Positions 34,537 to 64,000 of a stretch of DNA of 64,000 nt are shown here, piece by piece. The notes beneath the pieces are model-generated. The model did no database searches. It was not told the origin of the DNA and saw nothing but the letters and a program-made list of their open reading frames with translations. This DNA comes from Ulota crispa (lineage: Eukaryota > Streptophyta > Bryopsida > Orthotrichales > Orthotrichaceae), in the NCBI GenBank assembly GCA_963920765.1, contig OY987246.1, forward strand, positions 6,016,501-6,080,500, in the 5' to 3' direction. Position 1 is the stretch's first letter; each line of letters starts with the position of its first letter. The position numbers were made by a program, and so were the translations under genes.

Positions 34537-34694
34537 CTAGATGAATGGGACCAGGGCCTTGGTCTATTGCTTTACAAGTTTGAGGATCAAGGTGAAAAAT
34601 CTCTATTATTTTGCATACCAAAGAATGTAAGAGTTTGGAAAATTGCCATTGAGAAAGTGAATTTGAGATTTTCAAATTTGAATTTGGATTTTAA

Positions 34695-35414
34695 CCTCTA
34701 AAGGACCACTTGTCCCTACGAGGGACAAATAAGATTTTGGGCATGTACTTATGGCTAAATTACTTTGTGAAATTTTTTGAAACTCTTACAGAAGATGGGG
34801 AATTCAAAGATCTGTGTGGTCATCTAATTTTTTCCTCATTCTGACATTTATTGAAGAAGTTAAAAATGAATTTATGAGAATTTTAGTTTGGTGGGCAACC
34901 CAAAAACTTCTTTAAAAATTGCATATTTTTAAAATAAAATTTTGAGGTTAGTTCTTTAGACTTACATATATGTGGGGAGCTTTGAATCATTCAATTCTAA
35001 TTGATGAGATGAAAGTTATGAGAAGTTTTGGTTTGCGGGTAGGTGTAGAAAACCTCAAAACTATGCCTACCCGCAAACTAAAACTTCTCATAACTTTCAT
35101 CTCATCAATTAGAATTGAATGATTCAAAGCTCCCCACATATATGTAAGTCTAAAGAACTAACCTCAAAATTTTATTTTAAAGATATGCAATTTTTAAAAA
35201 AGTTTTTGGGCTGCCCACCAAACTAAAATTCTCATAAATTCATTTTTAACTTCTTCAATAAATGTCAAAATGAGGAAAAAATTAGATGACCACACAGATC
35301 TTTGAATTCCCCATCTTCTGTAAAAGTTTCAAAAAATTACACAAAGTAGTTTAGCCATAAGTACATGCCCAAAATCCCATTTGTCCCTTATAGGGACAGG
35401 TGGTCCTTTCGGGG
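34695..35414. mobile_element. TTAA-flanked 720-bp near-perfect hairpin element
   Basis: TTAA CCTCTAAAGGACCACTTG at the left, GGTCCTTTCGGGG TTAA at the right. Arms of about 350 bp pair almost completely around a loop near 35045-35065. The arm sequence matches the right halves of the elements at 56939-57877 and 62885-63826. Confidence 0.9.
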
Positions 35415-35418
35415 TTAA

Positions 35419-35939
35419 AGGCCTTGGTTTAGTGCAAACATCCAGCAAGGGATAAATTTGACGAACTCAAAAATAGGGATAGATTCTTACTATCACTCGT
35501 GTTTGTAAAATAGCTGAGCTATTCCACCGTGGCCCTACAAATTTGCAAAGCAACAGACCAGAGACTTCCGGATTGTTTCTGGTGCAGGGTTGGGAGTTTG
35601 GAGTTTGGACCGAGTGACCAACTTTTGCTGGCCCTTCGCCCTACATTTTACTGAAGAAAATTGAGCGTCTATCCCCAAGACTGGGTAAAGCCCAGTGGGA
35701 GCAAAGTGGGTCTCACCAACCAGAGTCCACCACATGACCCACCATCTTTGTAACCAACTGTGGTATCTCCATTTTTCTCAAAGCTTTTGCACCGGAATTT
35801 ATGATGAAAAGGATGGGCCCATGGGGCGTAGGTAAAGTGACTGTCGTCCAGTCAGTGGCTCCACCATACCTTACTGCTCATTTATGTGAATGTCCATGTC
35901 AAACTGGCACTCTGCCTGTTAAGGGAAATTACAGATAGA
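35419..35939. other. Intergenic DNA, nothing recognised
   Basis: Somewhat GC-richer around 35520-35880, with no coherent open frame and no family signal. Confidence 0.35.
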
Positions 35940-36338
35940 GGCATAAAAATGAAAATATTACAAATTGGGGCACAGTTTTGAAACAATATACAGTTTTTTG
36001 TAAATTTTGTTTGTTTGGACAATGGTTGATTTAGATACGTCACATTAAATTTTAGTTGGTTTTCAAAAAACTTAGAGGCCTTTCCAAATCAAGCCTAAAT
36101 AAAGAAATTTCAGTAAGGGGATGGCGAATTTTGGAAATATCTCTAATATATTTGGAGGTTAGCTAACTTTTGATGTGATATTTTTAATCAAGCAATATCA
36201 AAACCAAAAAAATACAAAGGTTTACAAATTATCTTGAAATTGTATCCTTGTTTGTAATTATTTTGAAATTGCGTCCCTATTTGTAATATTTTTTATTTTC
36301 ATGCCCCTATTTGTAATATTCCGTATTTTTATCTTGCC
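35940..36338. mobile_element. Unclassified inverted-repeat element
   Basis: Left GGCATAAAAATGAAAATATT then ACAAATTGGGGCA; right is the imperfect complement ending in TTTTTATCTTGCC. Ends are diverged and no TSD was identified. Confidence 0.55.
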
Positions 36339-36405
36339 ATAAAAGTTCACAATGGATTTGTTCTACAAATTCTTCACCCTTCATAAATATATTATAATTT
36401 GGTTA

Positions 36406-36742
36406 AGGGAAAATTTTATAGATACTTTTGAAGTTTGCCATATTTGTATAGATATCCTTGACTTTTCAGAAATTGCACAAATATTCTTGGATCATCATTT
36501 TCAAGTGTTTGTTCTATTGTGCATGTCACTTTTTTTCCTCAAGAGCATGCAAGCATGCATGCTTGCTTTTTTTTTTTTTTTTTTTTGCACTCCTTGCTAT
36601 AACATTGGTCACAAAGGAAGTAGCATATATAACAAAACAAACGCCTAAAATTTATGATCCAAGGGTATTTGTGCAATTTCCAAAACATTAGGGATGTTTG
36701 TACAAATGTGGCAAAATTCAAGGGTATCCATAAAATTTTCCA
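36406..36742. mobile_element. hAT-like AGGGAAA MITE with perfect 8-bp TSD
   Basis: AGGGAAAATTTTATAGATAC at the left, complement ending AAAATTTTCCA at the right. TSD TTTGGTTA at 36398-36405 and 36743-36750. Contains an inner homopolymer T run near 36570. Confidence 0.9.
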
Positions 36743-36750
36743 TTTGGTTA

Positions 36751-37858
36751 AATCGTTGGAGCATATCCATCCAACCTCAAAAACTTCATCAATAAAAAAA
36801 GCAGTGTTCCTTGTTTCTAGTGTAGATCACTTCTTTCCCCCATTTGTATAATTAGGCGAGTTCATGTTCATTCCATGACAAGTCTCCTTATTTGCAAAAG
36901 TAAATAGACTATTCATCATTGATTATTCATCCTAATTTTGTAGAAGGAATGGTAGTATTTGGAAGAAAATTGTTGTGCACAAGGAAATTGTAATTTTTGT
37001 AGTGCCAAGGAGAATATTTTGGCAAGCCCAGCCATTAATTGTTTCCTTTTCAACCAAAAGTCTCCTTGATTTGTTGTTTTTTTTTGTATGAGTGGAGATG
37101 CTCTTGGAGTGTCCTCAAGGCATATTGTGAAGAGACACCATATCTTTTAGTTATCAAAAGTGGAACAAAAATTGGAAACTATATCATCACTTGAAGTGCA
37201 TTGAGAAAGTCTTAGTAGCTTTGGACAAGTTTGTTTGATTATGGAAGAATGGAGTTAGATAGGGTCTAAAAGATAAGAAGTGCAAACGTGTTTTGCTACC
37301 TAATGCAAGAATGGAATCCTTGTGACATGGTGGATGACAAGCTTATGTAGATTCTCTCTAATTCTATGATTGGTTTTGTGTTCCAAGTTGATTAAGTATT
37401 GATGTGACCACCTAACAATAGGATGTTTGTGTGGGCTCTCCCATGATTAGGCCTCCTTGTGGATGTCTATTTTTGTTTTAGTTATCGTTTTTTCATGTCT
37501 CTTATTTTCTTTTGATTGTGCCCTAGAATTCATTTGTGTTATCCTTATAATCCTATTTTTGCAACGAACATTTTCTTTTTCTAAACAATATTAATGAGAA
37601 CATAGTGAAAGCTCAAGAGATTTTTGAACAAACCCAAGTTGAATTATTTGTTATCTGAACTTCATCTCTCATTACATGTCCTTCATGTATTATGCTTACA
37701 TACTCATCACTTAATATATAGACAAGCCTCTTTGTGGCCGTCACACCATGTCCCACATTCCAACTCTAGAAGTCCTAGTTCAACTCAAAATCTCAAGTTT
37801 GTTGGATTATAAAGGGGAAAGAGAAGAATTACTCGAACATAATGCTCATATAGTATAG
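36751..37858. other. Intergenic DNA, nothing recognised
   Basis: AT-rich, no supported gene or repeat structure. Confidence 0.35.
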
Positions 37859-38240
37859 CTCTTAAAGGACCAATGGGTGGCCGTGGCCTGCCCATACTGT
37901 AGCTTGAACAATATTTATACTGTAGCTTCAATAGTGCTTTGGTTGATGGGCACCAATAGTATTGCTTTTAAAAGTTTCAAAAGTCAATAGTGCACGCCAA
38001 CCTCATGAAATTTGCAATAAGGGCAGTTTGGAACCCAACATAATGATTTTAAGTTTTCTCACATTTTGGGTTACCTAAAAATATAAATATATTTGATAAG
38101 ATTTTTATTTACCTTCTATAATGGACCATGTGTTTACGGTCACTTTGGGAAAAAAATAGATGAAAAACGAATTTTTTCTGTCATATAGACTAAATTTTCA
38201 GGGCCAAAGGACGATAAATGTCCTCATGGACGTTTAGGGG
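37859..38240. mobile_element. CCC/TTAA MITE, AAAGTCAATAGTGCA subfamily, copy 1
   Basis: Right end GGACGTTTAGGGG TTAA is clear; left end CTCTTAAAGGACCAATG is eroded and its TTAA is lost. Related to 48757-49118 and 50094-50450 (shared AAAAGTCAATAGTG and CCATGTGT blocks). Confidence 0.75.
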
Positions 38241-38244
38241 TTAA

Positions 38245-39080
38245 AGAAAAAGACTAGTAGGACTCAATTCTAGAGTTAGTTTTATGCTTTTGCTACATCC
38301 TTTTCTTCGAGTTAAGTTCTACTATCTAAAGCCAAAACTTCCAAAAAGTGCCTTCATACAGACATTTGTGAGTGAGGCTATAATTGGGAATTGAATATAG
38401 TCAAAAAAATTTAAATAGTAAGCATTGGACAATTCAAAGTTACTCATATTTAGCACGAAATTGTGAACATCACCATATCCAGCAAAGAAAGTTTGGAGAG
38501 AATGAAAAACGTCTACAAAAAATTTCCAATGTTTTGCCTTAACAGGAATTGAGCTTTTGTAGTTTCCACAAATATCCAAAAGTTTGATATTTTGTAAATA
38601 TTGGGAGATTGTCAAATGTTTTGTTTATACATCATGCGATCTTGCTATATTATGCTTAAGTCCCAAATTTCATGAACACTCCAATTTCATGACATGTTAA
38701 CATTTGTCCTACGTTCCAACTCCTAGTGAAATCTCTTAACCTAATTGGGAGAGAGCTGAAAATGGAGAATCAACTTCACATTAAGTTCCAAGACCTTGAT
38801 CACATAAAAAAGCGTACATGGTAAGTATTTTTTTTTTTGGAAGTTCTGGCACTTACAAAGTCAGAGTTTTGTTCAAGAATTTTGTAAGACAAAAATAGAA
38901 CCCTAGTTCAACTTTGAAACCAAACCCCAACATTCTTTTGTCCAGGAACAAATATTCAGTTTCCTTAGACGGTATTTATTTTCGTTTATTAACCCCAAAC
39001 GGACCAAACTGTTTTTATTTTGTTTTTTATTTATTTTATTTTATTTTATTTTTTTGGCAACTTAGCAATTTGAGCAAGTA
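38245..39080. other. Intergenic DNA, nothing firm
   Basis: AT-rich. TTAACCCCAAACGGACCAAA near 38990 may be an orphan end of a CCC/TTAA element. Confidence 0.35.
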
Positions 39081-39240
39081 AGGTAGTCTGCTCATATTCG
39101 GCTCATGCTCTAAAACTGCTCACCTCCCAAATGTACCCTACTAAAACATGTCTTATTCATAGCCTTTCAACAATGTACATGGGGCAAACATTTGTGAGGT
39201 GGGCGGTTTTAGAGCACCTACAACTTTTCCAAATCAAAAT
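39081..39240 (+). mobile_element. Truncated AGGTAG/TA element
   Basis: AGGTAGTCTGCTCATATTCG after TA, then an inner palindrome GCTCTAAAACTGCTCACC with its complement, as in 8596-9164. The right end is missing. Confidence 0.6.
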
Positions 39241-39439
39241 TTCATAGAATGTGAGGACAAGGAATATCTTTCACATGCACTAAGTTTAATGACATTTGAA
39301 ATTATGAGTAAAGAGTTCTAACTCAATATGTTTCTTGTTCCTCTAGAAAAGCAATATGGGCATCTTTTAAAAACTATTTTTTTCAAAAGCAAGTACTTGA
39401 AATTGGTTCAAGAGATTTATGTGTATGTAAAAAAAAAAT

Positions 39440-40170
39440 TAAATCATTACATTTTTATCAATGAGATGAAAGTTATGAAGAGTTTCTGTTTGTGGGTAGT
39501 TATGGATTGTGTACTCTAAATTAACTTTGAAGCCCTTTATTTTACTTGATTTAACCCCTAAATCCTTGAATACCTTTTTTTGGCAACATAGCAATTTTGG
39601 GCAGTTCACTACCAATGGAGTTTTTAGTTTTTGTCTTTGTAACTTTCACAAATGATGTGTCCTTGGAATAGCTTTAAGGTCCAACAATTTTCATAACTTT
39701 TGACTTCATGGTTCAAAAGTTATTGCATGATATGTAGTTTTCTTTGCTTGGCGGTCAGCCAAAAACTTCTTTGAAAATTATATTTTTTAAATTTTGTTTT
39801 TTGAAATTGGTTTTATAGATAAATATATAGTTGCGAAGCTTTGAATCATTCCATTTTGGTCAATGAGATGAAATTAATGAAGACATTCTGTTTGCAAGTA
39901 GTTATGGATTCTCTAGTCTAAAATGAACTATGAAGTTCATTAATTTTCTCAATTTTCAATATTTTAGAAGAAAAACAAAACCAAAAGATGTAGATTGTTT
40001 TTTACAACATTACAGCCATTGGGATTGGGGTTTTTCTTTTCAATAATTAAGTTCTTAACAACTTAGTGGTGTGAATCATTTTCTACTTCTTTTTACTTAT
40101 TATCCATTTTCCAAATGATTTGAAAAATTTCAAGTGTGTACCCAACTTGCTTTGAAGAACAAATCCAAAA
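39440..40170. repeat. Decayed repeat DNA related to TTAA elements and to 43125-43330
   Basis: Two internal direct copies of a phrase around CAATGAGATGAAAGTTATGA (near 39460 and 39860) match the arm of the TTAA hairpin family. 39975-40170 (GATGTAGATTGTTTTTTACA onward) recurs at about 43141. Confidence 0.55.
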
Positions 40171-40699
40171 AATCACAACCATTTTGGAATTTTTTCATAC
40201 AAATATGATTTTGGAAAGTGCAGATGCCCGGTGTCCTGATGGAGATGCCTCCATCATGTAGATATACGTTTAGTATCTAGTTTGGTTTGGATTTCAATAG
40301 GTGATATGATTTATCTTTAAAATAAATAAAACTGCTAAAAGAAATGGATTGGATTTGGAAAGCGGGAGAGGATAAGAGGATAAGAATCTTGAATGGAGGT
40401 TAACTACAAGTTAGAGGATGAGCTAACATGTACTACATGCACCTTGCTTTAAAAAGAAATGAAAAGTAAAGGAAAGTTTCTTTTTAGCAAGTGTAAGTTG
40501 AGTGTGAGTGTTAGTTAATTATCAGTGGAGAAAGCCAAACCTTCAAAGAAAGATAGCTCCTAGGTCATGTATCTTTTGTCTATGAAATTTTGAACGCTTG
40601 GGTATCATTGTGTTGTGTTTCCAAAAAATCTATGCTTGCTTGATTTAGAGTGAGCATTTAAAAGTTGTGCTTATTTGAGTGGGGAAAAGTCTACTGCCT
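40171..40699. other. Intergenic DNA, nothing recognised
   Basis: AT-rich, no supported gene. Confidence 0.3.
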
Positions 40700-41400
40700 C
40701 TCATGTGAAGAGGTGGAGATTTTGATCGACCATAGAAACCAGACAGTTTGTTAGTTTGTTATGAAATTTTGAGGAAGTAGAAATCATTATATAAGCTTTC
40801 TAGCAAATTATTGAACTTGAGATTTGGAATTTGGAAAAGAAGATATGGAGGAGCAAAGGCTGAAAGGTTACATGTCTTTGAAAAAAAGGAAGTCGCAATT
40901 TTGAAGAATCATAACTTCTGGTCATATTCATATTTTCTTTTGAAAATTTTGTTAGTGATACCTTGTTAAATTGTCTTTTTAAAATGTTATCAGTCATGTC
41001 ATTTGAATGTTTTCTAGAGATTTGTGTTGATTTGAAGTTGAAAAGTATGCTGTATTTTTATAAAAGAGAGGTTGCAACTTTGATGAGCCATAACTTTTGG
41101 GTTGTTTGGAATTTTTTTTTGAATTTTTTTATGGATGATAGCTCATTAAATTAGTTTTTTAGATTGTTATCACTCAAGTCATTTGGAAGATTTTGAGGGA
41201 GTTATAGTCTGTAGAAGTTGAGAGGTTAGATGTCTTTTTCAGTTTACATATCCAAACTTTGATTGGCTATAACTTTTGAACAAAGTTTTATTTTTTAATG
41301 AATGTTTTACATGTTGTACCTAATAGTGTTAGTTTTCCGAATTGTTATCACACTTTTGTTTTGAAGCCATAACACAAAAATTATAAAGCTTCAAAAGGAG
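40700..41400. repeat. Degenerate tandem array, about 180-bp period, four units
   Basis: Units are marked by variants of GTTGCAACTTTGATGAGCCA then TAACTTTTGG at about 40710, 40892, 41069 and 41249, giving spacings of about 182, 177 and 180. A second shared block, TTGTTATCACTCAAGTCATT, recurs in the later units. Divergence is high. Confidence 0.6.
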
Positions 41401-41548
41401 AGTGGTTGGTTTGCCTAAGAAAGAGAGGAACTCCACTTTTTTTTTTCTTTCAATTTTAGATAGTAGTATAGTTTGAAGTGAGAATTTAGAAATTTGGTAG
41501 ATTTGAGATTTGGTAGATTTGAATGCTTGAGAGACTTAGAAGCAATAG

Positions 41549-41735
41549 ACTGCGCCCATTCTAGAGACAACATTGTCTCTAAAACTTTCATCTAGACTTT
41601 GAAATAGGCAACTGTGTCCATTCTAGAGAGAATTTATTTTCTAGAATTTCCATCTACAGTTTATAAAAGACAAATGTGCTTATTTTAGAGAGAACATTGT
41701 CTCTAGAAATTTCCAACTACACTAAGTCGCAGCCA
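41549..41735. repeat. Three tandem copies of a 62-bp unit
   Basis: ACTGCGCCCATTCTAGAGAC, ACTGTGTCCATTCTAGAGAG and AAATGTGCTTATTTTAGAGA start successive units at 62-bp spacing. Each is followed by a (C)ATTGTCTCTA-type stretch and TTTCCATCTA-type sequence. Confidence 0.75.
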
Positions 41736-42540
41736 AATATCCCGCGTATTCTCAAAGCGCGCTCCTTTCAACCTGATACAAGATTTTTGCAAAGACAAAA
41801 AATGGCTTTTTGTGAATTCAAACTCAAATATCTAATAAACTACATAGTGAAAACTCTTGATTTTTTTTCCACATCTTTTGATACTAGTGTAGTACAAGAT
41901 CTTACGGTTACATTTGTCAAAAAAATAATTCTTCTAAAATTTGGTATTTGTACTAGACATGGCAATTTTGGAACAATTTTTTGGGATGGTCTCTAGCCTA
42001 TGTTTTACAAACCACGTGATTTAAAAGATAGGATCTATTCAATTCAAAGAAAAAAATATATGATATGTAGAGCTGCTATAGGGTTTGTAGAACACTATAT
42101 ATTTTATTATATATAAATTAGGGTATGTAAAAACATTAGGTAGTAGGATTTCTTTTAATAAATTAGCCTTCACAAATAGGTGCTATGAATTTTTTAGTAT
42201 TGTTGTGTTGCTCTTCATGTTAAATTGTTTTAAATACATGCCATAGAATTGAAAAACACTAAAATTTTGTTAACATAAATTTTTACTTGGACAATAGCCC
42301 TCTAATTTGTATGCTTGTTATTGATTTTATGGTGAATACCATGCGTGTACATGTAATAGAAAGAAAGGTTTTTTTTAATGATTAATGGAAATAGGATAAA
42401 ACTGGACAAACAACATTTATACATAAAATAGCCCCATTTAAAAACCAAATGAATGAATTTATAAAAACATATGGAGTAGCAAAAATATAACCCGCGTAGC
42501 TTTTTATATAAGAACTAGTATACTACCCGTCGTACCAACA
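41736..42540. other. AT-rich intergenic DNA, nothing recognised
   Basis: No supported gene or clear repeat. Confidence 0.35.
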
Positions 42541-42544
42541 TGTT

Positions 42545-42718
42545 TATACCCCCCACCCCCTATCCCCATGCTCCTCGATCTTTGTGTACCCATATCCTCG
42601 TGCCCCCTTATCCCTATGCCCCTTTATCCCCATGTCCTCTATCCCCGTGCCCCTTTATCCCCGTGTCCTCTATCCCCGTGCCCCTTTATCCCTGTGTCCT
42701 CCTATCCCCATGCCTTCT
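42545..42718. repeat. CCCC(T)TATCCCCRTG minisatellite
   Basis: Imperfect units such as CCCCTTTATCCCCGTG and CCTCTATCCCCGTG repeat about ten times. The strand is strongly C-rich, and all three forward frames are open because of the repeat, giving spurious proline-rich peptides. Confidence 0.9.
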
Positions 42719-42736
42719 TTTGGCCGAGAGAAAGTT

Positions 42737-42794
42737 GTGGTGCAACTGCTAGTGACGGTGCAACTGCTAGTGACGGTGCAACTGCCAGTGACTT
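42737..42794. repeat. Three tandem copies of an 18-bp unit
   Basis: GTGCAACTGCTAGTGACG repeats three times (last copy one substitution), 20 bp after the C-rich minisatellite. Confidence 0.9.
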
Positions 42795-43124
42795 GTTTTT
42801 AACGTCTAGTGAAGCACATAAAAGAGAGTCATAGGTGATTTTACTTTATCCATTTATACCTTTTCGATCCTAGTCATGCCCAAACCAAACTTAAGCCTAA
42901 CCCTAATTGATTGAACACTATTATATGATAGGTTCTAATTGACTGAACGCTATTCTTTTATTAATATAGATACAATCATATTAAAACCCATATTTTAGAT
43001 AAATAAGCCTACATCAAATACCCACTTAACTTACGTGTATACCATAAAATTACAAAGAGTGATCTCCCCAAGAACGGTTTTGATGAAAATTTGAGCTTAG
43101 TGCTGTAGGGGTTAAGGTATCTTG

Positions 43125-43330
43125 GAAAAAAAATGCCAAAGGATGTAGATTGTTTATTACAACTCTACAATTGTTGGGATTGGCATTTTTCATTTCCATT
43201 ATTAAATTCTCAATAATTTAGTGTTTTAAAAAGTTCTCTATTTCTTTTTACTTACTATTTTTTTCCCATGTGTTGTTCAATTCCAGATGATTTGAAACTT
43301 TTTTGACATGTACCCTACTTAGGTGGATTA
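43125..43330. repeat. Second copy of the repeat at 39960-40170
   Basis: Shares GATGTAGATTGTTT, TACAAC, TTGGGATTGG and CTATTTCTTTTTACTTA blocks with 39975-40170. An orphan GTAGGGGTTAAGG (TTAA at 43112) precedes it, probably a CCC/TTAA element end. Confidence 0.55.
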
Positions 43331-45948: not shown

Positions 45949-45952
45949 TTAA

Positions 45953-46178
45953 CCCCTAAAGGACACAGCGTGCCGCTGCGACCAGTAGAATACGAGGTGA
46001 TTTTCTTGTATTTGGAATAGATTCACACCTTTACTGCATTTGAGATCAACAAAGAAGTTGGAGAATAGATCAAAGCGGTTCTAGTGATCTATTTGAGATC
46101 CCAAATTCAAACTTCTTACTGGTAGCAAATACCAATTATATGGCAGCGTATATACTATACCCTATGGTCCTTTAAGTG
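45953..46178. mobile_element. CCC/TTAA MITE
   Basis: TTAA CCCCTAAAGGACACAG at the left, ATGGTCCTTTAAGTG TTAA at the right. Confidence 0.75.
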
Positions 46179-46182
46179 TTAA

Positions 46183-47127: not shown

Positions 47128-47135
47128 TTTATAAA

Positions 47136-48752: not shown

Positions 48753-48756
48753 TTAA

Positions 48757-49118
48757 CCCTTGAAACGCCGGGCTGGTCACCGTGACCAGCCTAGCTAGAG
48801 TTCTCTCACTATAGAGAGCAAGTGCCCACCCTATCAAATTGTTTCTTGAAGTTGCAAAAGTCAATAGTGCATGGTGCCTTCATGAAAATTGCAAAAAAAG
48901 TAGCATGGGACCTAACACTGTGTCTTTGAATCTTCTCACAATTTTGATCATATAAAAATACAAGTGTATTTTGTGAGGTTGTTTTTTACCATTCATAGTG
49001 GCCCATGTGTGTATGATCACTTTCAAGAAGAAACTAGACAAAAATAGCTTTTTTAATGTTCTACACGGTGTTTTTTTGAGGCCAGCGGACAAAAAACGTC
49101 CACCTCGGCATTTAAGGG
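48757..49118. mobile_element. CCC/TTAA MITE, AAAGTCAATAGTGCA subfamily, copy 2
   Basis: TTAA CCCTTGAAACGCCGGGCTGG at the left, CTCGGCATTTAAGGG TTAA at the right. The open frames 48880-49236 (minus) and 48998-49324 (plus) overlap it and are not genes. GGTCACCGTGACC forms a short palindrome near the left end. Confidence 0.85.
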
Positions 49119-49650: not shown

Positions 49651-50467
49651 AGGTAGGAGCACCTTAAATGGACACATTTGTTAAATCAATTCAAGAAAAA
49701 GGTGCACTAGGATTTTGAATACAAATTTCTGTTAGGAAATGGGCAGAGATGGGTAGAAAATTGTCCTCATATTATTTTGCAGTTTTATGAATAAAATATG
49801 AAAATTTGAAGACGAGCTGTAGATACACCTATTGTGGACACTAGACCTGTTGTAAATCAATCATGAACCTTGGAAAAACAAACACAGAGAAAACCAAATG
49901 AGTGAACATGAGAGTCCAAGAATAGATCACTTTAATGCCTAAAATTGTTGTTGTGACCACTCATACCCATGGTTGGTGTCCCATTTGCCCAATTGCTGGA
50001 TCTCATACCTCTGGTTTGTGTCTCATTTACCCAACTACTGGGTCTTATACAACCTATTTTATAGGTGTCCGTGAACAAATCATGTCCATTTAACCCTTAA
50101 AGGACTGACCCTGAACCCATGGCCACCTGGGTCTGAGAGTGCACTGTTCATGGGCAGTGAACAGCCTGTGGCATGTGTCGAAGAGATATAATATTCTCCT
50201 CAAAAAAAGGAAAAGTCAATAGTGTATCCTGCCCTCTCAAAAAGGGCAGCAGGGACCTTGTACATCTCTTTACAAATTGGTGTTTAAAAAAATATGGAAG
50301 CATGGAAAGTAGCTATTTTTGGCATTCACAGATGTGACACATCTCTGTGACCACTTTCAAGAAAAAAATTGAAAAAAGAAACTTTTTCCATCCTTGCGAT
50401 ATGTTTTCGGCACTGAAAGGACGATTTTTGTCCTCTTGGACGGTTAGGGGTTAAGGTGCTCCTACCT
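49651..50467. mobile_element. AGGTAG/TA element carrying a nested TTAA element
   Basis: AGGTAGGAGCACCTTAA after TA, right end GGTGCTCCTACCT before TA. Without the insert at 50094-50450 it is about 456 bp. The insert lies close to the right end. Confidence 0.85.
50094..50450. mobile_element. CCC/TTAA MITE, AAAGTCAATAGTGCA subfamily, copy 3, nested
   Basis: TTAA CCCTTAAAGGACTGACCC at the left, TTGGACGGTTAGGGG TTAA at the right, wholly inside the AGGTAG element at 49651. Confidence 0.9.
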
Positions 50468-50499
50468 TACCCCTAATGTTATGGAGCAGTCTGGGAATG

Positions 50500-53043: not shown

Positions 53044-53047
53044 TTAA

Positions 53048-54910
53048 GGTTGCTAACAATAAGTGACCCCCACCTTGGAACTTGCGAGAAACTTTCTACA
53101 TGTTTTTGCCCATGGTTATTTAGAAGTGTTTAGCAATTGATTTAATTGTCAATGTTAGTAACGCATTATCAACCATGGTATTTGTGTTGGACTTGGTCAG
53201 CACGTGAATGGAAATCCATTCTAATTAAAGAAATGAATCGTTTGGGAAACATGAGAAAGGAAACATGGAAAAAAGAACATGGTCGAATGTGACAAAGACG
53301 ACTCTATTCATTTAGAGGCAAGCAAATAAAGGGTTTGGTTTTGTTTGGCAAAATAGAATTAGAAGTTCTATCCTTTTAAAGAAATGTTTATTTGTTAGGT
53401 ATGAATAAAGAAAATTTTGACAAACCTCGTAATACCGTAGTGTGATATGGGTTTCGTTTTTGCAAAGACAAAATAACTATTATTTTTACATGAAGAGGTT
53501 TGTTTTTGTTTAAATGGAATAGTGATGATTTTGTTTTTGTAAGTACATAATTATTAGACTTTTTGTCATACATTCAATTTGAATGAAATATTGCGTCCTT
53601 TCAAATTTAAAGGGACAATCAAAAGATGGTTAATCTCTTATAATGTTTACAATGAATGAAAGTGGAGTTGGTTTGACTTGGTTTTAATAAAATTGATAAC
53701 AGCTGCAAGTAATGTTTCATTTATTTACTTTTAACGCCCAACCAAACTTATTTGAATATATATACTGGTATGCAATGTACTACAATGGATTTATTAAAAA
53801 TATTTTATGTTGCCACTGAACTTTTAGTTATATCTCTTACAAATTTTTTACAAATTTCGTTATTTGTACCCTAACATTTTCTGGAAATTCGTGTTTTACA
53901 TTTTTGAAATAATAAAAAACGAACCCCATGTCACACTACTGTATATCGAAATGAAGGAAACCAGTGTTCAATGTGCAATTTGTAATCCATCTCAATTGGC
54001 TCTTTTATAATTCAAGTTTACGTACCTTCTCTTTGTTGATATAGTTTTTCTTTTCATTACATAATTTGTCTTTCTTTAAATTAGCTTTGTAACATAGTGA
54101 TAAGTTATTGTAGAAAACAAATGTTCACATTGTATCTTTTTTCATAGTTGACAATATTGATAGACATAGGTACAAAGGTAGAAAAGTTTTGATATACAAG
54201 GAATGGTTTTGTTTAACAGAACGTAAGAGTCATCTTTTTTTTTATAGTTTAGGCATTTGATAATTGTAAATTTGGAAGGCTTAAGAAAAGGAAAAACTTC
54301 GATTTACTGTAAATTACCAAAAAGATAGTAGAAAATGAAATAAGCAAATTGGTGTCTGAATTTTGATTCCTGATTCAATACTTGCTTTAACAAATATAAG
54401 GTCAATTGTTTGCAATCAACAGCTTTTCAACGTAGTTATGCTTTAGTTATCTTTATACAAATAAGCATGGGATCCTCTCAACAAATTTTTCATTAAGGTA
54501 GTTGTGATTATTTGTACTCATTCAAATTATCCGTTGTTATTGCCATGTTCAAAAGTTGCTTCACATTGTAAATTTAAAAAAATGTAAAATTGGATTTGAA
54601 GTGGAGTACAAGGCAATTGTGTGTTTTTGAAAGATACAATTCTATGTATTATTGTCTTTAGTTTTTTAGCAACAAATCAATTAAGTTAATATTTCTAGTT
54701 TGATAAGTATGTATATTTGTTGTGCAACTTTGTATTTTGCTTATACTATAAATAAATAAAATCCAAATTAATTCATCACTTCAGATAATTTTAGCAATTT
54801 CACTTTCACTATCTTTATAAACATCCATATTTGGACAACAAATGAATTCAAACATCTTCTTTCATATATAATGTCATCTAAAAACTCTTGTTTTAAAATC
54901 CATTTTGAGT
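53048..54910. other. AT-rich intergenic DNA, nothing recognised
   Basis: No supported gene, RNA or repeat. Confidence 0.35.
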
Positions 54911-54914
54911 TTAA

Positions 54915-55156
54915 CCCCTGAGCGCCCACGCCATATGCACTCAAATCCATACCCTTGTGTACTTAGTCCTATAAAAGTATTACCTAAGTAGAGTCAAATA
55001 GCTCAAATTTTTTTTGAGTGGTAGTAGACACATGCCTGGAGAAGTACATGAAAAAGTGTAAGTTCTTTGACTTTACCATTAAAAAGAGGATGATAGTCAA
55101 ACATGGATATTTTTCAAAACTAAGTGACCATTATTGGTTGGTGGGACGCTCAGGGG
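54915..55156. mobile_element. CCC/TTAA MITE, GAGCGCCC subfamily
   Basis: TTAA CCCCTGAGCGCCCACGCC at the left, GTGGGACGCTCAGGGG TTAA at the right. Confidence 0.88.
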
Positions 55157-55498
55157 TTAATATCTAACAAATTGCAAACTTCTAATAGCGTTCTTTGCAA
55201 AAAAAAACCCTAATCTTTTATAAGAACATAATTTTGTGAAAAACTCATAAAACTTCAATTCTTGATACTTAATTTTCCAAGATGTAATCATGAATACATG
55301 TAAGAATGTCAACTAGTTGGTTTATGGACATCATTCAGTTTTATATTAAAAGTAGCGATTGAGCTTCATTAGATTGTTATGTAACTTGATCAAATTTGCA
55401 AGAAGAAAGAATAATCTATTAAACAGTATGATTTGGTAAAAAGCAAATTTTCAAAATCAAAATATAATTAACAAATTATATTTGAAAATTTTATTTAA

Positions 55499-55569
55499 CC
55501 CCTCAACGTCCGAGAGGTGATAACATCGCTCCATTTCATAGTATTCTAAGATACCCAGGCCTTGAGGGG
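55499..55569. mobile_element. 71-bp CCC/TTAA mini-element
   Basis: TTAA CCCCTCAACGTCC at the left, AGGCCTTGAGGGG TTAA at the right. The shortest candidate of the group in the window. Confidence 0.65.
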
Positions 55570-56007
55570 TTAACAATATACACAAATTGTTGACATTGAA
55601 ACGAGAATAGTTCAAGTTAGTGATTCTTTTGTAGTGTGGTTGGATTTAGATTACATGTGAAGGAGATACTTGCTTACAAAGGAAACCCTGACAAAGTTTT
55701 AACTTAATATGATTATGCTGATTCTAGTATATGCAAATATTTTTTTGTAAATCAACAAACAAAGTGTTATTGCTTTGTGTTCAAAGTTATAACATAAAAA
55801 ACAATGTAACTTTCCAAGCAACATAAAAAACAAACATATACATGAATATCATATTTCAAACACAATTAGCACCCATGTGCCAAAACTTGCTTTAAAAATA
55901 ATATAAAGGTGTAATAAGAGGTTTTGTTGTATAAGTGATGGACTATAACAAAGTTATTAATGGATGTGTTTTCTTGATTTATACTAGATTGAACTCTTAC
56001 TTTACCA

Positions 56008-56220
56008 AGGTAGAGGGCTCTAAAATGGTGCACTTTTAGGAATGGTTGACATATTCCTCTCAAATACCTATTACTATCATTGATGAGTTAGGTGAGCATA
56101 CATATAAAGCTATGCCCACCTAACTCATCAATGATAGTAATAGGTATTTGAGGGGAATATGTCAACCATTCCTAAAGGTGCACTATTTTAGAACAAGTTC
56201 CATTTCAGAGCCCTCTACCT
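56008..56220. mobile_element. AGGTAG hairpin MITE
   Basis: AGGTAGAGGGCTCTAAAATG at the left and its complement ending CTACCT at the right; the two arms pair almost completely. The right flank is TA, the left flank CA. A hAT-like MITE starts 4 bp beyond the right end. Confidence 0.85.
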
Positions 56221-56223
56221 TAT

Positions 56224-56520
56224 AGGGAAAATTTCATGGGTATCCTTGAAGTTTGCATAATTTCATAGATAGCTTTGTTTTTGCAGAAATTTCGCAAATA
56301 CCTTTGGACCAAAAATTTTACATGCCACTTCCCTTCTTCCTTTGTACATACACTACTTCTCTCTTGTTATGTGTGGGCACAAAGGAAGAAGGAAAGTGAC
56401 ATGCACAACAAAAAAAGAGCACTTTAAAACTTTAGTCCAAGGATATCTGTGAAATTCTTGAAAAAGCAAGGGTATTGATGAAATTATTGCAAACTTCAAG
56501 GGTATCTATGAAATTTTCCC
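56224..56520. mobile_element. hAT-like AGGGAAA MITE
   Basis: AGGGAAAATTTCATGGGTAT at the left, complement ending GAAATTTTCCC at the right. It abuts the AGGTAG hairpin, and no clear TSD is left. Confidence 0.8.
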
Positions 56521-56938
56521 TTTACTATATTGTTGTGTATTAATATTGCAAGGATTATAATACATTTTATAAAATAACTTGCTTTATGTTAGTTTTTTAC
56601 AAAAAATCAAAACTTATAGTATGATATTGAAATCAAAAAATAGTTTAGATGAAATCTATTACTCCATAATGAACTACATATATACTAGAAATGGTTGACG
56701 GGAAATGAGTTATGATGCTAATTTCTTACATTGCATGTTTGTGTTGTTGTCGTACGAATTCAATTATTTTGTGCATTAACCTATTTTATAAGGATTCCTC
56801 CATTTGAATTATAATATATCACCAATTTTGTTCCACACATGTTAGATTTTGGTTGACATTCAAACATCACTCAAACCTTATAACAAAATAACAAGTTTGA
56901 TTGGTATATCTCATGGAATTATAATTAGCCCCTAAAGG

Positions 56939-57877
56939 CCCAAGCCCTTTTTTCTTAAAAAATCACTCAAAACTGCCACTTTTGGGGGAGTGAGGAGAAA
57001 TGTTATTATTATTATTTTTGGAAATTCAACCATAAGATCTTGCCTTAGACTATGGGAGGTACTTACGGAAAAAATTTAGCTCATTCTAGAAGGTGAGGAG
57101 TGAGACATTCACACAAGAAGTGAAAAAAAAAAATTTGTTTCATTGTTGCCCAAAAATTTCAGAAGCCTCTGACAGCTTCTATATCAAAAAAATTGCTATA
57201 CGCAAAGTTGAGGCTTATTTTTCCCATGTAGAAGACCAAGTTAGGTAAATGTGGGAGAATTTTCAAATGAAACGGAGGTGTGGATCATACTTTGTAAAAT
57301 CCTGCAATGCCTTAAGGTCATGAAATTTGCATATACACTACGCAAAATTGGAGGATTTATGTAAAATTCAAAAACCCAAATTACTTTGATCCAAATGGTA
57401 AAAACCAAGGAATTTTAGTCTACTACAACTTGCAAAAATAAAAAGTCAAAAAACAAATACATAGAGAGCTAAAAAAAGTAAAGCAACAAGTTTTACAAGG
57501 GGAAAAAGGAATGGAGGTTTGGGAGTCCCATACCTACCCGCAAACTAAAACTTCTCATAACATTCATCTCATTTATCAAAATTGAATGATTCAAAGATGT
57601 CCATGTATATAAAAATCTAAAGAACCAATTTCAGATTTTTATTTTTAAAAAATTCAATTTTAAATTTATTTTTGGGCTGCTCGCCCTTGCCCTTATTCAA
57701 AAATTCATGCATAACTTCTTCAATAAATGTCAAAATGAAGAAAAAATTAAATACCCACGTAGATCTTTGAATTGCACACCTTCAATAAAAGTTTCAAAAA
57801 ATCACAAAAAATAAATTAGCCATAGATACCTTCCCAAGATCCCATTTGTCCCCCAAAGGGACAATGAGCCTTTAGGG
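56939..57877. mobile_element. CCC/TTAA element, about 1-kb subfamily, copy 2
   Basis: CCCCTAAAGGCCCAAGCCC after TTAG (eroded TTAA) and GAGCCTTTAGGG before TTAA. It aligns along its length with 62885-63826. The right half contains the arm of the hairpin at 34695-35414 (CCTACCCGCAAACTAAAAC). Confidence 0.85.
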
Positions 57878-57881
57878 TTAA

Positions 57882-58436
57882 GACAATTATATGCAAAATT
57901 CCTTAAATCGGTTTGAGATATTAATAAGAAATTCCTTTACTCAACCTCCTAAATCCTTAAATTTTTGGTGTAAAGGTAAACAATTAAGCGTTCTAAAATG
58001 CATTTGTTTAAATGACTATTTTGGTGTTTGTATTTGAATAAATGTTTTATAACTTAGTATAGGTTTAAATTAAATCCGTGATAGATATAAAACTGAGATT
58101 TCAAGTATCATTCAATTTATAGTATTACTGTGAATGTTGATTGTATTTTAATGGGTTCTTTTTGTAACGAACTAAAAAGGGATGTCAAATTAAATGCAAT
58201 AATTTTTTAAATGCTTATATTTTATTGTTATACAAGGATCATTGGAGTGGTTACGTTTCAAATCTAAGTGATGCTCATGTTATTGCTTAGATCATGGTAA
58301 ATTAGTATTTTCTATAACAAAGTGGCTTTAAAATACATACTATCACATAAATTAGAATTAATGGAATTTGGATTGAGGAGTAAGATACTGTTTGACAGAA
58401 ATACTCTTGAATTTTTTCAAACTTCTCAAGCTGAAC
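57882..58436. other. AT-rich intergenic DNA, nothing recognised
   Basis: No supported gene. Confidence 0.35.
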
Positions 58437-58440
58437 TTAA

Positions 58441-58664
58441 CCCCTTATTGTCACAAAAGCCCTTTGCGGTCATATGTATGGCTGTATGTATAGACATATT
58501 TGAGATGCTCTGAGGGCTTTTCAATTTTTTTTATGCACCCACCATCATACAACCCTCCAATATGTATGGTTGTAACACTTAATTTCCAATTGATTCAAAC
58601 TTCTGAATATTGGTTGCGACCGTATTTGGTACCGTAGCTCTAGAGCCCAAGGGCCCTTCATGGG
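58441..58664. mobile_element. CCC/TTAA MITE, TCACAAAAGCCC subfamily, copy 2
   Basis: TTAA CCCCTTATTGTCACAAAAGC at the left, AGGGCCCTTCATGGG TTAA at the right. Confidence 0.88.
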
Positions 58665-58674
58665 TTAAACTTAA

Positions 58675-58911
58675 CCCTTGCAAGATATTGCCGTATTGCA
58701 TACGCTCTCCTATGTTGTATTTGGATGGGATATTTGGGTAGCACACAAATTTCATTGGACCTCTAAATTTTAAGCCAAGTCATAGACATATTACAAGTTA
58801 ACTAGGATTTTTTGGAGAATTTTTGGCATTTTTCATAAAATCATTTCTTCAAGTACTAAATAGCCCTTGTATGAATACATCCAACACTTTTGGTACAACA
58901 TCCTTTAGGGA
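58675..58911. mobile_element. CCC/TTAA MITE next to copy 2
   Basis: TTAA CCCTTGCAAGATATTG at the left, ACATCCTTTAGGGA TTAA at the right. Only a few bases separate its left TTAA from the previous element. Confidence 0.7.
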
Positions 58912-58915
58912 TTAA

Positions 58916-59072
58916 GGGCCCAAACACATTAACAAAGATTGGTTTTGAGAGATTTCTATTTTATTGCAATATTGGATATCCATCATCACTAGAAAAAACA
59001 GGTTTTTCTAATTGACATGGTCAAATTTTCTATCAAGTAAATATTGCAAAAACACACCTCTACGTAACAAAG

Positions 59073-59146
<74 letters not shown>

Positions 59147-59966
59147 TAATATTCATAATAAAAGACATAAAACAAAGGTGACCAATGGTCAAAGCGCTGA
59201 CTTTTGAATATATGATTCTCTAGAATGACATGACTAATAGGTTTCACTTTACACTAGATTTTCTAACATGATGGTGAGAATATAATCCTATTACAAAATA
59301 ACACAAAATCCTTTGCTTCTAAATAATTTGAGTGAAATCTCTTGTTTAAGTTTTAGAGCGATAGTAAAAATTAAAAACAAATGACTGGCCCTTTTACTCA
59401 TTATTTGACTTGACAACTTGTTTTGTGAACTTTGTCATTATAGCACACTTGAAATCTTAACACCAATGGTACAACTTCATTTCATTAATGCTTCATATAT
59501 AGTGATAATAGCTTTAGAAGAGTAATTTAAAAACCTCATTGTGTATGATTGATGATCAAGAATCAAGAATCATGATAATAGAAATGGTTGTCTTTGTTTG
59601 TGTTATAAATGTAAAGGTCACATAATATTGTTTAAGTTGTTTTAGCTACTCACCCACACAAATAATGCTAACTAATATCAATCCAAGAGATGAGTGCTTT
59701 TATGAAGGGCACTTACATAGTAGTTTATAGTAGTTTAAGTTAATGAAATTGTGTGCATCATAATATGTATTAACTATTTCAAACAATGTGATTCAAAAAT
59801 TTCACTAAATTGGAGAGATTTTGCAAGCACATATCTCAACTATCAAGTGTATGTAGAATGCCACATTATGAAGGTGGAGGCTCCAAGCTGCTTCATGGGG
59901 ATTGTTATAGGTTGTGACAATAATCCTACTTGGAAACATGCGTGGAAGGCATGCCACATCCTCACA
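58916..59966. other. AT-rich intergenic DNA with a long (AT)n tract
   Basis: No gene recognised. It includes the microsatellite at 59074-59144. Confidence 0.4.
59074..59144. repeat. (AT)n microsatellite, about 70 bp
   Basis: Uninterrupted AT dinucleotides, which create a spurious Ile-Tyr repeat frame on the minus strand. Confidence 0.95.
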
Positions 59967-59970
59967 TTAA

Positions 59971-61344
59971 ACCTTAAAGGACCAAGTGTTTATTCAACGG
60001 ACTCTTGAGAACTTAGGTAGGGTCATACAAAGTTAATTTTATTGGATGTTCTCAAAATTGTTACACAAGGTGTAAATATGTATCCCCCAAGTGGAATTTA
60101 TTTTTTCCCCAATCAGATGCTCAATTCAAAAGTTATGCTATCCAAAAGAATTTGGGTAGCTTGGGTAATTTGGGCATCTTTGGAGAGTCTTATGCTAAAA
60201 CTCTCATCAAACTTTTGAAATTTGGCATGTATGTAACTAATAAAATATGGTATACAATTGTCAAAAAGAATGAAAAAATTGAGCTCTCAAATTATATTCT
60301 AAGAGAAATCAAACTTTGTTAATTGTGACTTGGCAGTTTTAAGAAAAAATATTTTCTTCTAACTTTAGGCCATATTATCTTCCAATCTATAAATATAAAG
60401 CTCTTGAATTTATTTTCAAATATTTTGTATTTTTGTCTCCAACTTTTCACCATTTAGATTTCAAATAAAAAACTTCCTTGTTGCACAAGAAATCATGAAA
60501 AATGACTAGTGTATTGCCAATTCTTTTAACCTCCTTGCATTGCAAGATGATTTAGAATAAGCTAGATTCTCTATTTGCTTTTGAAAGTTTTCATGAGTGA
60601 ACCTAACATCATATAAGGTAGGCGCACCCATAAGTGTGGAAATAAGGGTTTTGGAGTAGGTAAAACAATTGACTAACTTTGAAAAAAATATTGTAAGTTA
60701 GGAAATGGAAACCAAAAATATTGGCATCAATTTCAAGGTTCCAACTACAAGCATTTGTTCACAAAGATTTTTCAAAGTCCAAAATCACTGAAATTGTAAG
60801 AACCATGTGTAAGAGATGCTAATCACAAGGCTTCTTGGTTCTTAAATAGTGAGATGGGTACTCAAAACCTCATGCTAATCACCCACAACCATCACTTCAT
60901 CACCCATAACCATCACTCAATTACCCACAACCATTTGTTTTTATTAATTAGCCATGCCACTGTTAGGTGATGGGCATGGGGATGCAACGCTTATGGATGC
61001 TGCTACCTTACTTATGAATGGTCAAAAACCTTGTTTTTATGTAGAGCAAAACTTCTACTCCGATAGGGCTTGAAACTTATTGATCTTATTTTGCAAGAAA
61101 GAAAATTAGTTGTTTTTTACACTTCAATTATTAAAACCTTACAAGTTACAACCTACGCAGTTGAATGGGCTGAATTTTTTTGAATGGGCTGAATTTTTTT
61201 TGCTTACATTGGTTCATCTGATTAACACACTTTTGTACGGTTGAAATTCAGAAGAAAAGTTTTTGGTTTCAATTTTGGGCAACGCACTCTAAGTTGGCAG
61301 TTTCTGAGATCTTATCTTAAAAATCACCGTCAGTCCTTTAGGGG
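59971..61344 (+). mobile_element. CCC/TTAA-group element of about 980 bp carrying a nested AGGTAG element
   Basis: TTAA ACCTTAAAGGACCAAGTG at the left, GTCAGTCCTTTAGGGG then TTAG at the right. Aligns in reverse with 33616-34536 along most of its length, interrupted at 60616-61008. No transposase frame. Confidence 0.8.
60616..61008. mobile_element. AGGTAG/TA element nested in the TTAA-group element
   Basis: AGGTAGGCGCACCCATAAG after TA, right end GATGCTGCTACCT before TA. The uninterrupted relative at about 33905 (reverse) shows a single TA at this place. Confidence 0.85.
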
Positions 61345-61666
61345 TTAGCTGAACAAAACTCATCTTAATTAATTATGCAGTGTGCAATGTCTGGCACTAA
61401 TTGAAACAACCCGAGTAGTACATTTTTATGACACACAACGAATATACAAATTACTAGTTTGTGCCAAAATGGTACTTAAGTTGGAATTCATAATACAAGT
61501 CTCACTTATGTGTTTTTATTTTTATTTTCAGAATGTGACACTAAACTGATTAATCGTTTTATGGGGGCAACAAAAATATCGTTGTGGCAAAATGAATGAC
61601 ATTATAAATGATTATATTTCTGATGATTTAATAAAAAATAGAAACATTTTATCCTACATTGATTCA

Positions 61667-61986
61667 TGGGAAAGTTTTATGGATATCCCTGAAGTTTGCC
61701 ATACGTGTATAGATATCCTTGGTTTTCCAGAAATTGCACAAATATCTTTGGACCATAATTTTCAGGCGTTTGTTCTATTGTGCGTGCCACTTCTTTCTCC
61801 CTTCTGCTCAAACTACTTCTTTTCCATTCTATTGCACTCCTTGCTTTAACATTGATCATGAAAGAAGTAACTCACATAACAAACAAATGCCTAAAAAATA
61901 TGGTCCAAGGGTTTGTGCAATTTCTAAAAAATCAGAGGTATCTATGCAAATATGACATACTTCAGGGGTACCTATAAAATTTTCCC
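61667..61986. mobile_element. hAT-like AGGGAAA MITE with perfect 8-bp TSD
   Basis: TGGGAAAGTTTTATGGATAT at the left, complement ending AAAATTTTCCC at the right. TSD TTGATTCA at 61659-61666 and 61987-61994. Close to the copy at 36406-36742. Confidence 0.9.
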
Positions 61987-62196
61987 TTGATTCAAATGTA
62001 TTACAAATGAATTACCTTCTGTAAATTAATGGTACACATTAATGCAGCTGATGAGTGCAATGAGATGTTGGTGACGTTGGTCTTAGACAAAGTTTGAAAC
62101 TTCCTAAGGGTCACTTTGACCCATAACTGCGGGGCCTTTTGGCCACTTACTGGAGGTAGTTTCAAAAAGAAGGGCCCTATGGGTGGAAGGAATTAA

Positions 62197-62436
62197 CCCT
62201 TGAGCGCCCAAGGGGCCAAAATATGGTTTCTCTATTTTGAAAAATTTCTTTGTTTGATCATTATAATCTTTTCAATGATACGGTGAAAGGATATGTCCTT
62301 TTTCTTCGAGCTATGGGCCTATGTTCACTACCAATCAATACGGCCAGTTTTTGCGAATTTCTTTTAGGTGATAGTTTGATTGGAATGAGTTCCAAAGAGT
62401 TTGAATTTGAGTGAACTTGTGTTGGGCGCTCAAGGA
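62197..62436. mobile_element. CCC/TTAA MITE, GAGCGCCC subfamily
   Basis: TTAA CCCTTGAGCGCCCAAGGG at the left, GTTGGGCGCTCAAGGA TTAA at the right. Confidence 0.88.
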
Positions 62437-62662
62437 TTAAGGGATTTATGACCTTTGTTGATTGGTCAAGGCTCAAGGGAGCATAAGAATACAAAATGTG
62501 AACACCGGAACAGCTGTATTCAATGTGAGAACATGCGTTAGCTAATATGAGAACAGAATCAACAGGTTGAACTTCATGTGAGAACATACTCAAACACAAT
62601 AGTGCCAGTGGGAGGGAGCATGTAGCTTTGGAGCTTTTGAAGCAAAATAAAATATGGTTTAA

Positions 62663-62880
62663 CCCCTAAACATCACAAAAGCCCTTTGCAGTCGTATGTA
62701 AGGCCGTATGTACATACGTATTTGAGGTGCTATGAGGGCTTTCCAAATTTTTTTATGCACTCACCATCATATAACCCTATAATATGTATGGTTGTAACAG
62801 TATTCAATATTCAAAATTTTGAATATTGGTTGCAACTGTATTTGGTACCGTAGCTCCAAAGTCCAAGAGCCCTTCAGGGG
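62663..62880. mobile_element. CCC/TTAA MITE, TCACAAAAGCCC subfamily, copy 3
   Basis: TTAA CCCCTAAACATCACAAAAGC at the left, GAGCCCTTCAGGGG TTAA at the right. The right TTAA (62881-62884) is shared with the next element. Confidence 0.9.
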
Positions 62881-62884
62881 TTAA

Positions 62885-63826
62885 CCCTTGAAGGGATATG
62901 CCCTTTTTTTTGTGAAAGTTACTGACTACCACTTTTGGGAGAATGAGTAAAATGCTAGGAAAAAAAGTTTTTTTGGAGATCCAACACTAAGATCTTGCCT
63001 TGGACTTGAGAGGTACTTGCGGGAAAAAATCAGCTCAATCTAAATGTAGAGTGAGATATTGACATCTAAACTAAAAAGAAAAGTTTTTTCCCTGCTGCCC
63101 AAAAACTTCAAAAACCTTTGACCACTCTTGTATCAAAAAAATTGCTCTACTCAAAACTGAGGTTTATTTTTCCTATGTAGAAGACCAAGTTAGGTATGTA
63201 TGGGAGAATTTTCAAATGAACTGGAGGTGTCAATCATACTTTGTAAAATCTTGCAATGCCGTAAGGTCATGAAATTTGCATATACACTAGGCAAAATTGG
63301 AGGATTTATGTGAAATTCAAAAATTTAAATTACTTTGATCCAAATGATGAAAACCAAGGAATCTTAGTCTACTACAACTTGGAAAAAAAAGAAGTGAAAA
63401 AACAAATTCACAAAGAGCTCAACAAAGTAAAGCACCAAATTTTACAAGGGGGAAAAGAAAAGGAGGTTTGGGAGTCCCATACCTACTTGCAAATAAAACT
63501 CCTCATAACTTTCATCTCATCAATTGGAATTGAATGATTCAAAGCTTCCCACATATACAAAAATCTAAACAACCAATTTCATGTTTTTATTTTAAAAAAT
63601 TGCAAACTTTTTTTTGTTGGGCTGCCTGGTTCTCCCCTATTTTTTAGTATTTCATGCATAACTTCTTCAATAAATGTTGGAATGAAGAAAAAATTAAATA
63701 CCCACATAGATCTTTGAACTCCCCACCTTTAACAAAAAATTCAGAAAATCCAATAAAGTAATTTAGCTGTAGGTACATGCTCGAAACCCCACTTGGCCCC
63801 CAAGGGACCACTTCAGCCTTTAGGGG
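62885..63826. mobile_element. CCC/TTAA element, about 1-kb subfamily, copy 3
   Basis: CCCTTGAAGGGATATGCCC after TTAA, right end TTCAGCCTTTAGGGG then CTAA (eroded TTAA). Aligns along its length with 56939-57877, including the GAAATTTGCATATACACTA and CTACTACAACTTG blocks. The small frame 63310-63537 is conserved in position only because the DNA is. Confidence 0.85.
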
Positions 63827-64000
63827 CTAAAGAAGATTTCAGATTAAAAATCTTTACTTCTGCCAGGTTTAAAAAAAAAAAATACTTCTACCTCTGTATG
63901 AATCGATTTAGAGCCTTATTTGAAAATTATGAAAAAATCAATTGTCAGATTAGTCACATGTAATATTGTTTTTGAACGAACAATATGGCCTTTGCTGTCT

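Follow-up and report, generated by a model that had tools for sequence, protein, structure and literature searches.

The 64-kb window, as we call the whole stretch of DNA analysed here, carries short elements with inverted ends of the CCC type that are bordered on both sides by TTAA. We have little doubt that these are non-autonomous miniature inverted-repeat transposable elements (MITEs) belonging to piggyBac, a superfamily recorded chiefly in animals, that they reside in a plant genome, most likely that of a moss, and that resident elements of 5.0–6.0 kb with shared ends moved them in trans. A first-pass annotation of the window had named ten intervals that are bordered by TTAA and carry inverted ends of this type, and inspection confirmed an exact TTAA directly outside both ends of all ten; CCC opens 17 of the 20 ends, and the remaining three open with CCT, CAC and TCC. 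The elements and their decayed relatives are listed below, none with an assigned strand.

8713–8953: piggyBac-type MITE, 241 bp, TTAA on both sides, inside another high-copy repeat
19197–19405: TCACAAAAGCCC-family MITE, 209 bp, TTAA on both sides
34695–35414: hairpin MITE, 720 bp, arms of ~350 bp, TTAA on both sides
37861–38240: decayed MITE, relative of 48757–49118, TTAA after the right end
45953–46178: AAAGGACC-family MITE, 226 bp, TTAA on both sides, 81% identical to L028:8209-8432
48757–49118: MITE, 362 bp, TTAA on both sides
50094–50450: MITE, 357 bp, TTAA on both sides, 83% identical over its full length to L026:2605-2234
54915–55156: GAGCGCCC-family MITE, 242 bp, TTAA on both sides, starting point of a 21-copy alignment
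57530–57877: single-arm relative of the hairpin family, ends in GGGTTAA
58441–58664: TCACAAAAGCCC-family MITE, 224 bp, TTAA on both sides
62197–62436: GAGCGCCC-family MITE, 240 bp, TTAA on both sides
62663–62880: TCACAAAAGCCC-family MITE, 218 bp, TTAA on both sides
63479–63808: decayed single-arm relative of the hairpin family

Grouping by similarity yields at least five sequence families among the window elements, which backs the earlier division of the terminal inverted repeats (TIRs) into subfamilies; the element at 19197–19405 is 80% identical to that at 58441–58664 and 77% identical to that at 62663–62880. The earlier count of at least 15 elements is a fair one, provided that the decayed copies at 57530–57877, 63479–63808 and 37861–38240 are included. 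Nineteen stretches, amounting to 8.2 kb of the 64 kb, resemble the TTAA pairs of a loose scan in which some pairs look chance-like, and by our own estimate the elements cover about 5 kb once such pairs are dropped.

The window elements belong to families that extend across the genome. Together with its TTAAs, the element at 54915–55156 was found at 40 places including itself, with 88–100% identity (best 40 of 591 candidates), and 35 of these 40 scored copies cover the full 250 bases. Alignment of this element with 20 fetched copies (21 rows) gave a mean agreement of 95% in the element columns and 41% in the flanks, with the eight TTAA letters agreeing in 19–21 of the 21 rows and a mean pairwise divergence of 14%. 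The family is conserved exactly from TTAA to TTAA. In L029, L031 and L045 the MITE copy adjoins another TTAA-CCC element via one common TTAA; such borders, counted by eye, account for 4 of the 42 ends in the 21 copies and are expected if a border TTAA serves again as a target. The element at 34695–35414 forms a near-perfect hairpin with 334 of 350 arm bases paired and a predicted RNA energy of −566.7 kcal/mol, where 20 shuffles averaged −147.6, and a genome search with it gave at least 87 match rows in both orientations (best 40 of 7,382 loose first-look candidates, which may include single-arm relatives). Scored copies of both families are spread over all ten contigs, C1–C10. The exact end TTAACCCCTGAGCGCC occurs 1,568 times genome-wide and the exact end TTAACCCYTAAAGGACC 9,236 times, whereas the reversed control gave 0 in each case. 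Among the 100 TTAACCCYTAAAGGACC places listed, we found by eye 12 plus/minus pairs less than 1 kb apart, 10 of them 0.90–0.96 kb long, which suggests a further family of ~930 bp.

A search of the same genome for the piggyBac transposase domain PF13843 (DDE_Tnp_1_7) gave at least 120 match rows, some of them two pieces of one copy, with a best E value of 1.3e-73 (best 116 of 528 candidates), and no PF13843 match was found in 14 control genomes. Ten of the 120 rows are free of stops, and the others carry them. Stretches of 9.9 kb were fetched around the 20 best loci, and end pairs were accepted by eye from a ranked list. The search for ends that enclose such a domain, an idea of the first-pass annotation that we ran starting from the transposases, found paired TTAA-CCC-type ends 5.0–6.0 kb apart at 10 of the 20 loci (element length 5,017–6,013 bp), lying 2.1–3.3 kb upstream and 1.4–2.5 kb downstream of the transposase. 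Under strict criteria (CC at both ends and an inverted match of at least 8/14), 8 of the 20 loci were positive, whereas each of the 15 control palindromes tried was positive at 0 or 1 locus, in a test that comprised 12 TTAA pairs and 129 control pairs. The full-length ends open with CCC in 17 of 20 cases and with CC in 18 of 20, the selection having given a bonus for CC. The window elements are MITEs in the usual sense, being short, multi-copy and equipped with ends shared with resident transposase-encoding elements.

The transposase of L012 matches two PDB sequences, the only ones at E ≤ 0.01, of which one is piggyBat 9c0f (E 1.7e-16) and the other is 6x67 (E 3e-13), which bears the name Transposase. 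The first two catalytic motifs (DE, DN) align with piggyBat, and all three acidic motifs (DE, DN, VDxxDQ) were seen by eye in the L011, L014 and L073 frames, the third by comparison with what we take to be the piggyBac sequence. As to the cysteine-rich zinc domain at the C-terminus of piggyBac transposases, a Cys-rich tail is visible in the L011 frame, where a second Pfam match is absent. Two further loci, L070 (G000:C1:1179900-1182500) and L069 (G000:C4:3591300-3593700), carry PF13843 without internal stops and are possibly young copies or domesticated genes; by eye, N replaces D in the third motif of L069.

Membership of the piggyBac superfamily is secure. Kolobok and Sola are among other superfamilies that duplicate TTAA, and the interiors of the MITEs differ from those of the full-length elements, so that an origin of the MITEs in a Kolobok- or Sola-type family, with the resident piggyBac elements a coincidence, has to be weighed; we consider it very unlikely, though no search aimed at Kolobok or Sola transposases was made, because DDE_Tnp_1_7 is what the TTAA-bordered resident elements with ends of this kind encode and because CCC-type ends are what we take to be a piggyBac signature.

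We examined target sites by joining the flanks of each element and seeking matches that span the junction; the sites so compared are paralogous ones, lie in repeats and come from one genome. Among 15 MITE sites, searched against the window and the fetched loci, the 8713 site gave long junction-spanning matches and the 50094 site a junction match of 35 bp. The 8713 junction gave at least 41 rows genome-wide with 78–90% identity (best 40 of 2,664 candidates), and all 41 span at least query positions 15–178, across the junction at 91–94. The host of this element is a dispersed repeat of unrecognised class (564–746, 8619–9047 and 39104–39246 in the window) with 2,664 first-look candidates genome-wide. 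Each of 20 fetched empty copies of the site has a single 4-mer, which is TTGA in 18 and TTAA in 2 (L062, L067). Judging from these two, the target copy probably carried TTAA before insertion through a G-to-A change. Joining the flanks of the 10 full-length elements gave junction-spanning matches for three (L027, L014 and L021). The empty sites for L021 are neighbouring tandem units, one with CTAA and one with TTAA plus two extra bases; the others are listed here with the empty copy of the 8713 host repeat.

564–746, minus strand: empty copy of the repeat that hosts the 8713 element, single TTGA at the insertion point
9732–9835, plus strand: empty paralogous site for the full-length piggyBac element in L014, one TTAA
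10796–10899, minus strand: second empty paralogue of the L014 insertion site, one TTAA
25307–25492, minus strand: empty paralogous site for the full-length piggyBac element in L027, one TTAA

The comparison with empty sites, proposed earlier for orthologous sites and run here on paralogous ones, thus found a single 4-mer (TTAA, TTGA or CTAA), so TTAA is the duplicated target and lies outside the TIR. The sequence TTAACCC...GGGTTAA can also be parsed as TA + ACCC...GGGT, with an identical empty site, as would apply to a TA-target family (Tc1/mariner or Stowaway-like) whose TIRs start at ACCC and which merely prefers TTAA. This is less likely still, since in counts that cover the outermost and innermost letters of TTAA at TTAACCCCTGAGCGCC ends, the outermost T is altered in 43 and the innermost A in 35, versus 1,568 intact, and letters that decay alike do not indicate a TA target with a loose preference. 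In addition, all four TTAA columns agree in 19–21 of the 21 aligned copies, and the transposases inside such ends are those of piggyBac. A Stowaway (Tc1/mariner) MITE was rejected as a candidate, its TA-only duplication being at odds with TTAA edge letters that are equally rarely changed.

Controls against chance pairing were run on a 262-kb test set made up of the window and the 20 loci fetched around transposases, which is not a neutral sample. When TTAA pairs 100–900 bp apart with CC at both ends were taken, 17 of 20 were inverted repeats at ≥8/14, as against 10 of 131 for 15 other 4-base palindromes pooled. Dropping the CC rule left TTAA unremarkable, with 32 inverted pairs at 10/14 versus 87 for AATT and 44 for ATAT, both of which have more sites than TTAA in this set. 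A looser scan of the window alone gave 14 TTAA pairs, some of them chance-like, versus 1–8 for five control words, and retrieved 8 of the 10 listed elements. A search that ignored the flanks returned 118 inverted CCYYT pairs, among which TTAA/TTAA was the commonest flank (n = 8), followed by ACAC/GTGT (n = 6) and CACA/TGTG (n = 5), the last two perhaps simple repeats. That the TTAA-CCC pairs are chance pairs misread as elements has a negligible probability, for although the pairs at 5818–6589, 25600–26012 and 31780–32505 look chance-like in the loose scan and TTAA pairs without CC ends are no commoner than AATT pairs, the two exact ends have no reversed counterpart (1,568 and 9,236 versus 0), and two of the listed elements belong to multi-copy families that end exactly at TTAAs on all contigs C1–C10.

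Several observations weigh against the interpretation of the elements as MITEs mobilised by resident piggyBac transposons. No convincing end pair was found at the other 10 of the 20 transposase loci, perhaps due to decay or nesting, and the 10 accepted pairs were picked by eye, that of L028 being the second-ranked one and those of L010 and L021 each having one end without CC. In favour of shared ends, a MITE end profile places all 20 full-length ends among the 72 highest-scoring of 1,467 sites next to a TTAA, but this test is partly circular given that the pairs were chosen with a CC bonus. A shared interior between MITEs and full-length elements was looked for, and no match was obtained. Within the window and fetched loci, empty sites came to light at only 1 of 15 MITE and 3 of 10 full-length sites, and the paralogues of the 8713 site mostly have TTGA, the TTAA before insertion resting on 2 of 20 copies.

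The diverged full-length elements have a further coding stretch in common, ~0.6–1.1 kb from the left end, with a conserved domain of ~110 residues. A 125-residue query from L014 located this domain at 91 places in the genome, and it lies upstream of PF13843 on the same strand at 38 of the 91 and at 31 of the best 50. The distance to PF13843 is 1.4–4.5 kb in 36 of the 38 cases and 8.3 and 10.0 kb in the other two; none of the 91 places has an opposite-strand PF13843 match within 12 kb, and a downstream position was seen once. The 53 places without a scored PF13843 downstream within 12 kb may reflect a transposase scan limited to the best candidates, or decay, and part of them may be solitary genes. 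Among 7 stop-free copies (21 pairwise comparisons), synonymous differences amount to 0.62–0.84 per site, near saturation, and replacement differences to 0.25–0.52, the lower replacement values indicating that the domain was under purifying selection. In several copies the conserved stretch opens with a Met. No family or solved-structure match to the domain was recognised, a predicted five-helix model of it gave no clear structural neighbour, and the piggyBac chains solved from animals did not show it. It would appear to be either an N-terminal module of the transposase or the first gene of the element.

The genome was annotated earlier as that of a plant, and this is supported by the order of plastid genes, the type of LEAFY and the decay of cytosines, with moss as the most likely group; we judge a moss host likely and a land-plant host very likely. 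A 112.5-kb contig has the gene order atpB, rbcL, trnR(CCG), accD (atpB and accD being named from their translations), in which rbcL-trnR(CCG)-accD is presumably the plastid order of seed-free plants in general rather than of mosses specifically. In the sole LEAFY gene found, positions 312, 345 and 387 (numbered by hand along the Arabidopsis sequence) are D, C and H, letters that we take to be the type II set. Mosses have type II LEAFY, according to the relevant passage of a published account, as do a few liverwort genes (PMC8742948). C-to-T decay in the MITE alignment reaches 19% at CHG, 12% at CG and 3% at CHH; in the repeat that hosts the 8713 element, the values are 13%, 22% and 8%, respectively, and the contrast is weaker. 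Decay at CHG is expected from plant methylation. Some rbcL residues seem to look algal, which would count against a moss host. The window also carries host genes on the minus strand for a PRP38 family protein (14805–16094, E 2.5e-51) and the F-actin capping protein beta subunit (20504–21160, E 1.3e-15). A larger inverted repeat at 9295–11322 has arms of 729 bp that are 99% identical (9426–10154 and 10477–11205) around a spacer of 322 bp; it extends outward at 85% and ends near GGACATTAAATGTTGCCC, not obviously piggyBac-like.

Like insect piggyBac and bat piggyBat, the elements described here have a TTAA target duplication, CCC ends and inverted repeats, and with piggyBat and 6x67 they share a DDE_Tnp_1_7 transposase of recognisable sequence similarity. 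They differ from both animal elements in their moss-like host and, in part of the elements, in an additional conserved domain encoded ahead of the catalytic one, and at 5.0–6.0 kb they are longer than the 2,472 bp given for insect piggyBac in the passage concerned (PMC10803768). Short relatives of piggyBac-type elements are also represented, in the passages that mention them, by mPok of Daphnia and by coral MITEs; for its part, the present genome has more than 10,000 exact ends from two end types, and it is set apart by one family that is a 720-bp near-perfect hairpin. For land plants, a repeat table of the seed-free fern Ceratopteris (C-fern) has 1,230 PiggyBac entries covering 0.12 Mb, given as 0.00%, in a passage that, unlike the present case, describes no ends, target sites or transposases (PMC6890710). 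PiggyBac is also listed among seven angiosperm MITE superfamilies (PMC10004981), named among plant DNA transposons (PMC10794571) and said to have been isolated from insects, fungi and plants (PMC10813416), in passages that contain no moss, target-site test or copy numbers. The Tourist and Stowaway MITEs are similar in their plant biology and high copy numbers, but as outlined in the passage on them they belong to other superfamilies and target TTA/TAA or TA rather than TTAA (PMC10004981). As piggyBac has already been named for a fern, for angiosperms and for plants generally, its presence in plants is not new in itself. The first-pass annotation knew of no large radiation described in land plants, and among the matches listed from one open library of papers no account of such a radiation in any bryophyte, mosses included, was found. 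New in the present case are the scale of the radiation in a moss-like host, the empty sites and the domain upstream of the transposase.

Taken together, the TTAA duplication, the CCC-type ends and the DDE_Tnp_1_7 transposases inside matching ends support the initial reading of the window elements as piggyBac-like MITEs. By analogy with piggyBac biology, the transposase of resident 5.0–6.0 kb elements with the same CCCYTNANNGNCC-type ends would bind the inverted ends of the MITEs and mobilise them in trans, excision would proceed via hairpinned ends with a TTAA overhang, and reinsertion would take place at another TTAA, which is then duplicated; each MITE family may be driven by a specific full-length lineage. 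The decay of most transposase copies makes the main wave an old one, and because several diverged lineages coexist, the superfamily looks long resident rather than a single recent arrival. We see an even chance that a piggyBac branch has long resided and diversified in mosses, or in this lineage of them, with an extra ~110-residue N-terminal helical transposase domain under purifying selection, which would have seeded tens of thousands of MITEs including the giant hairpin family, an abundant source of double-stranded RNA if true.

PiggyBac serves as a foreign tool in plants, and in this moss-like genome it appears to act as a force that is both native and abundant. Ends and transposases of piggyBac that are native to plants thereby become available for study, and empty sites for dating. 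The upstream domain suggests that transposon-end recognition or the interaction with the host was rebuilt in this branch. One MITE family with strong CHG-type cytosine decay offers a test case for the silencing of piggyBac by plants, and small RNAs may arise from the family of 720-bp hairpins.

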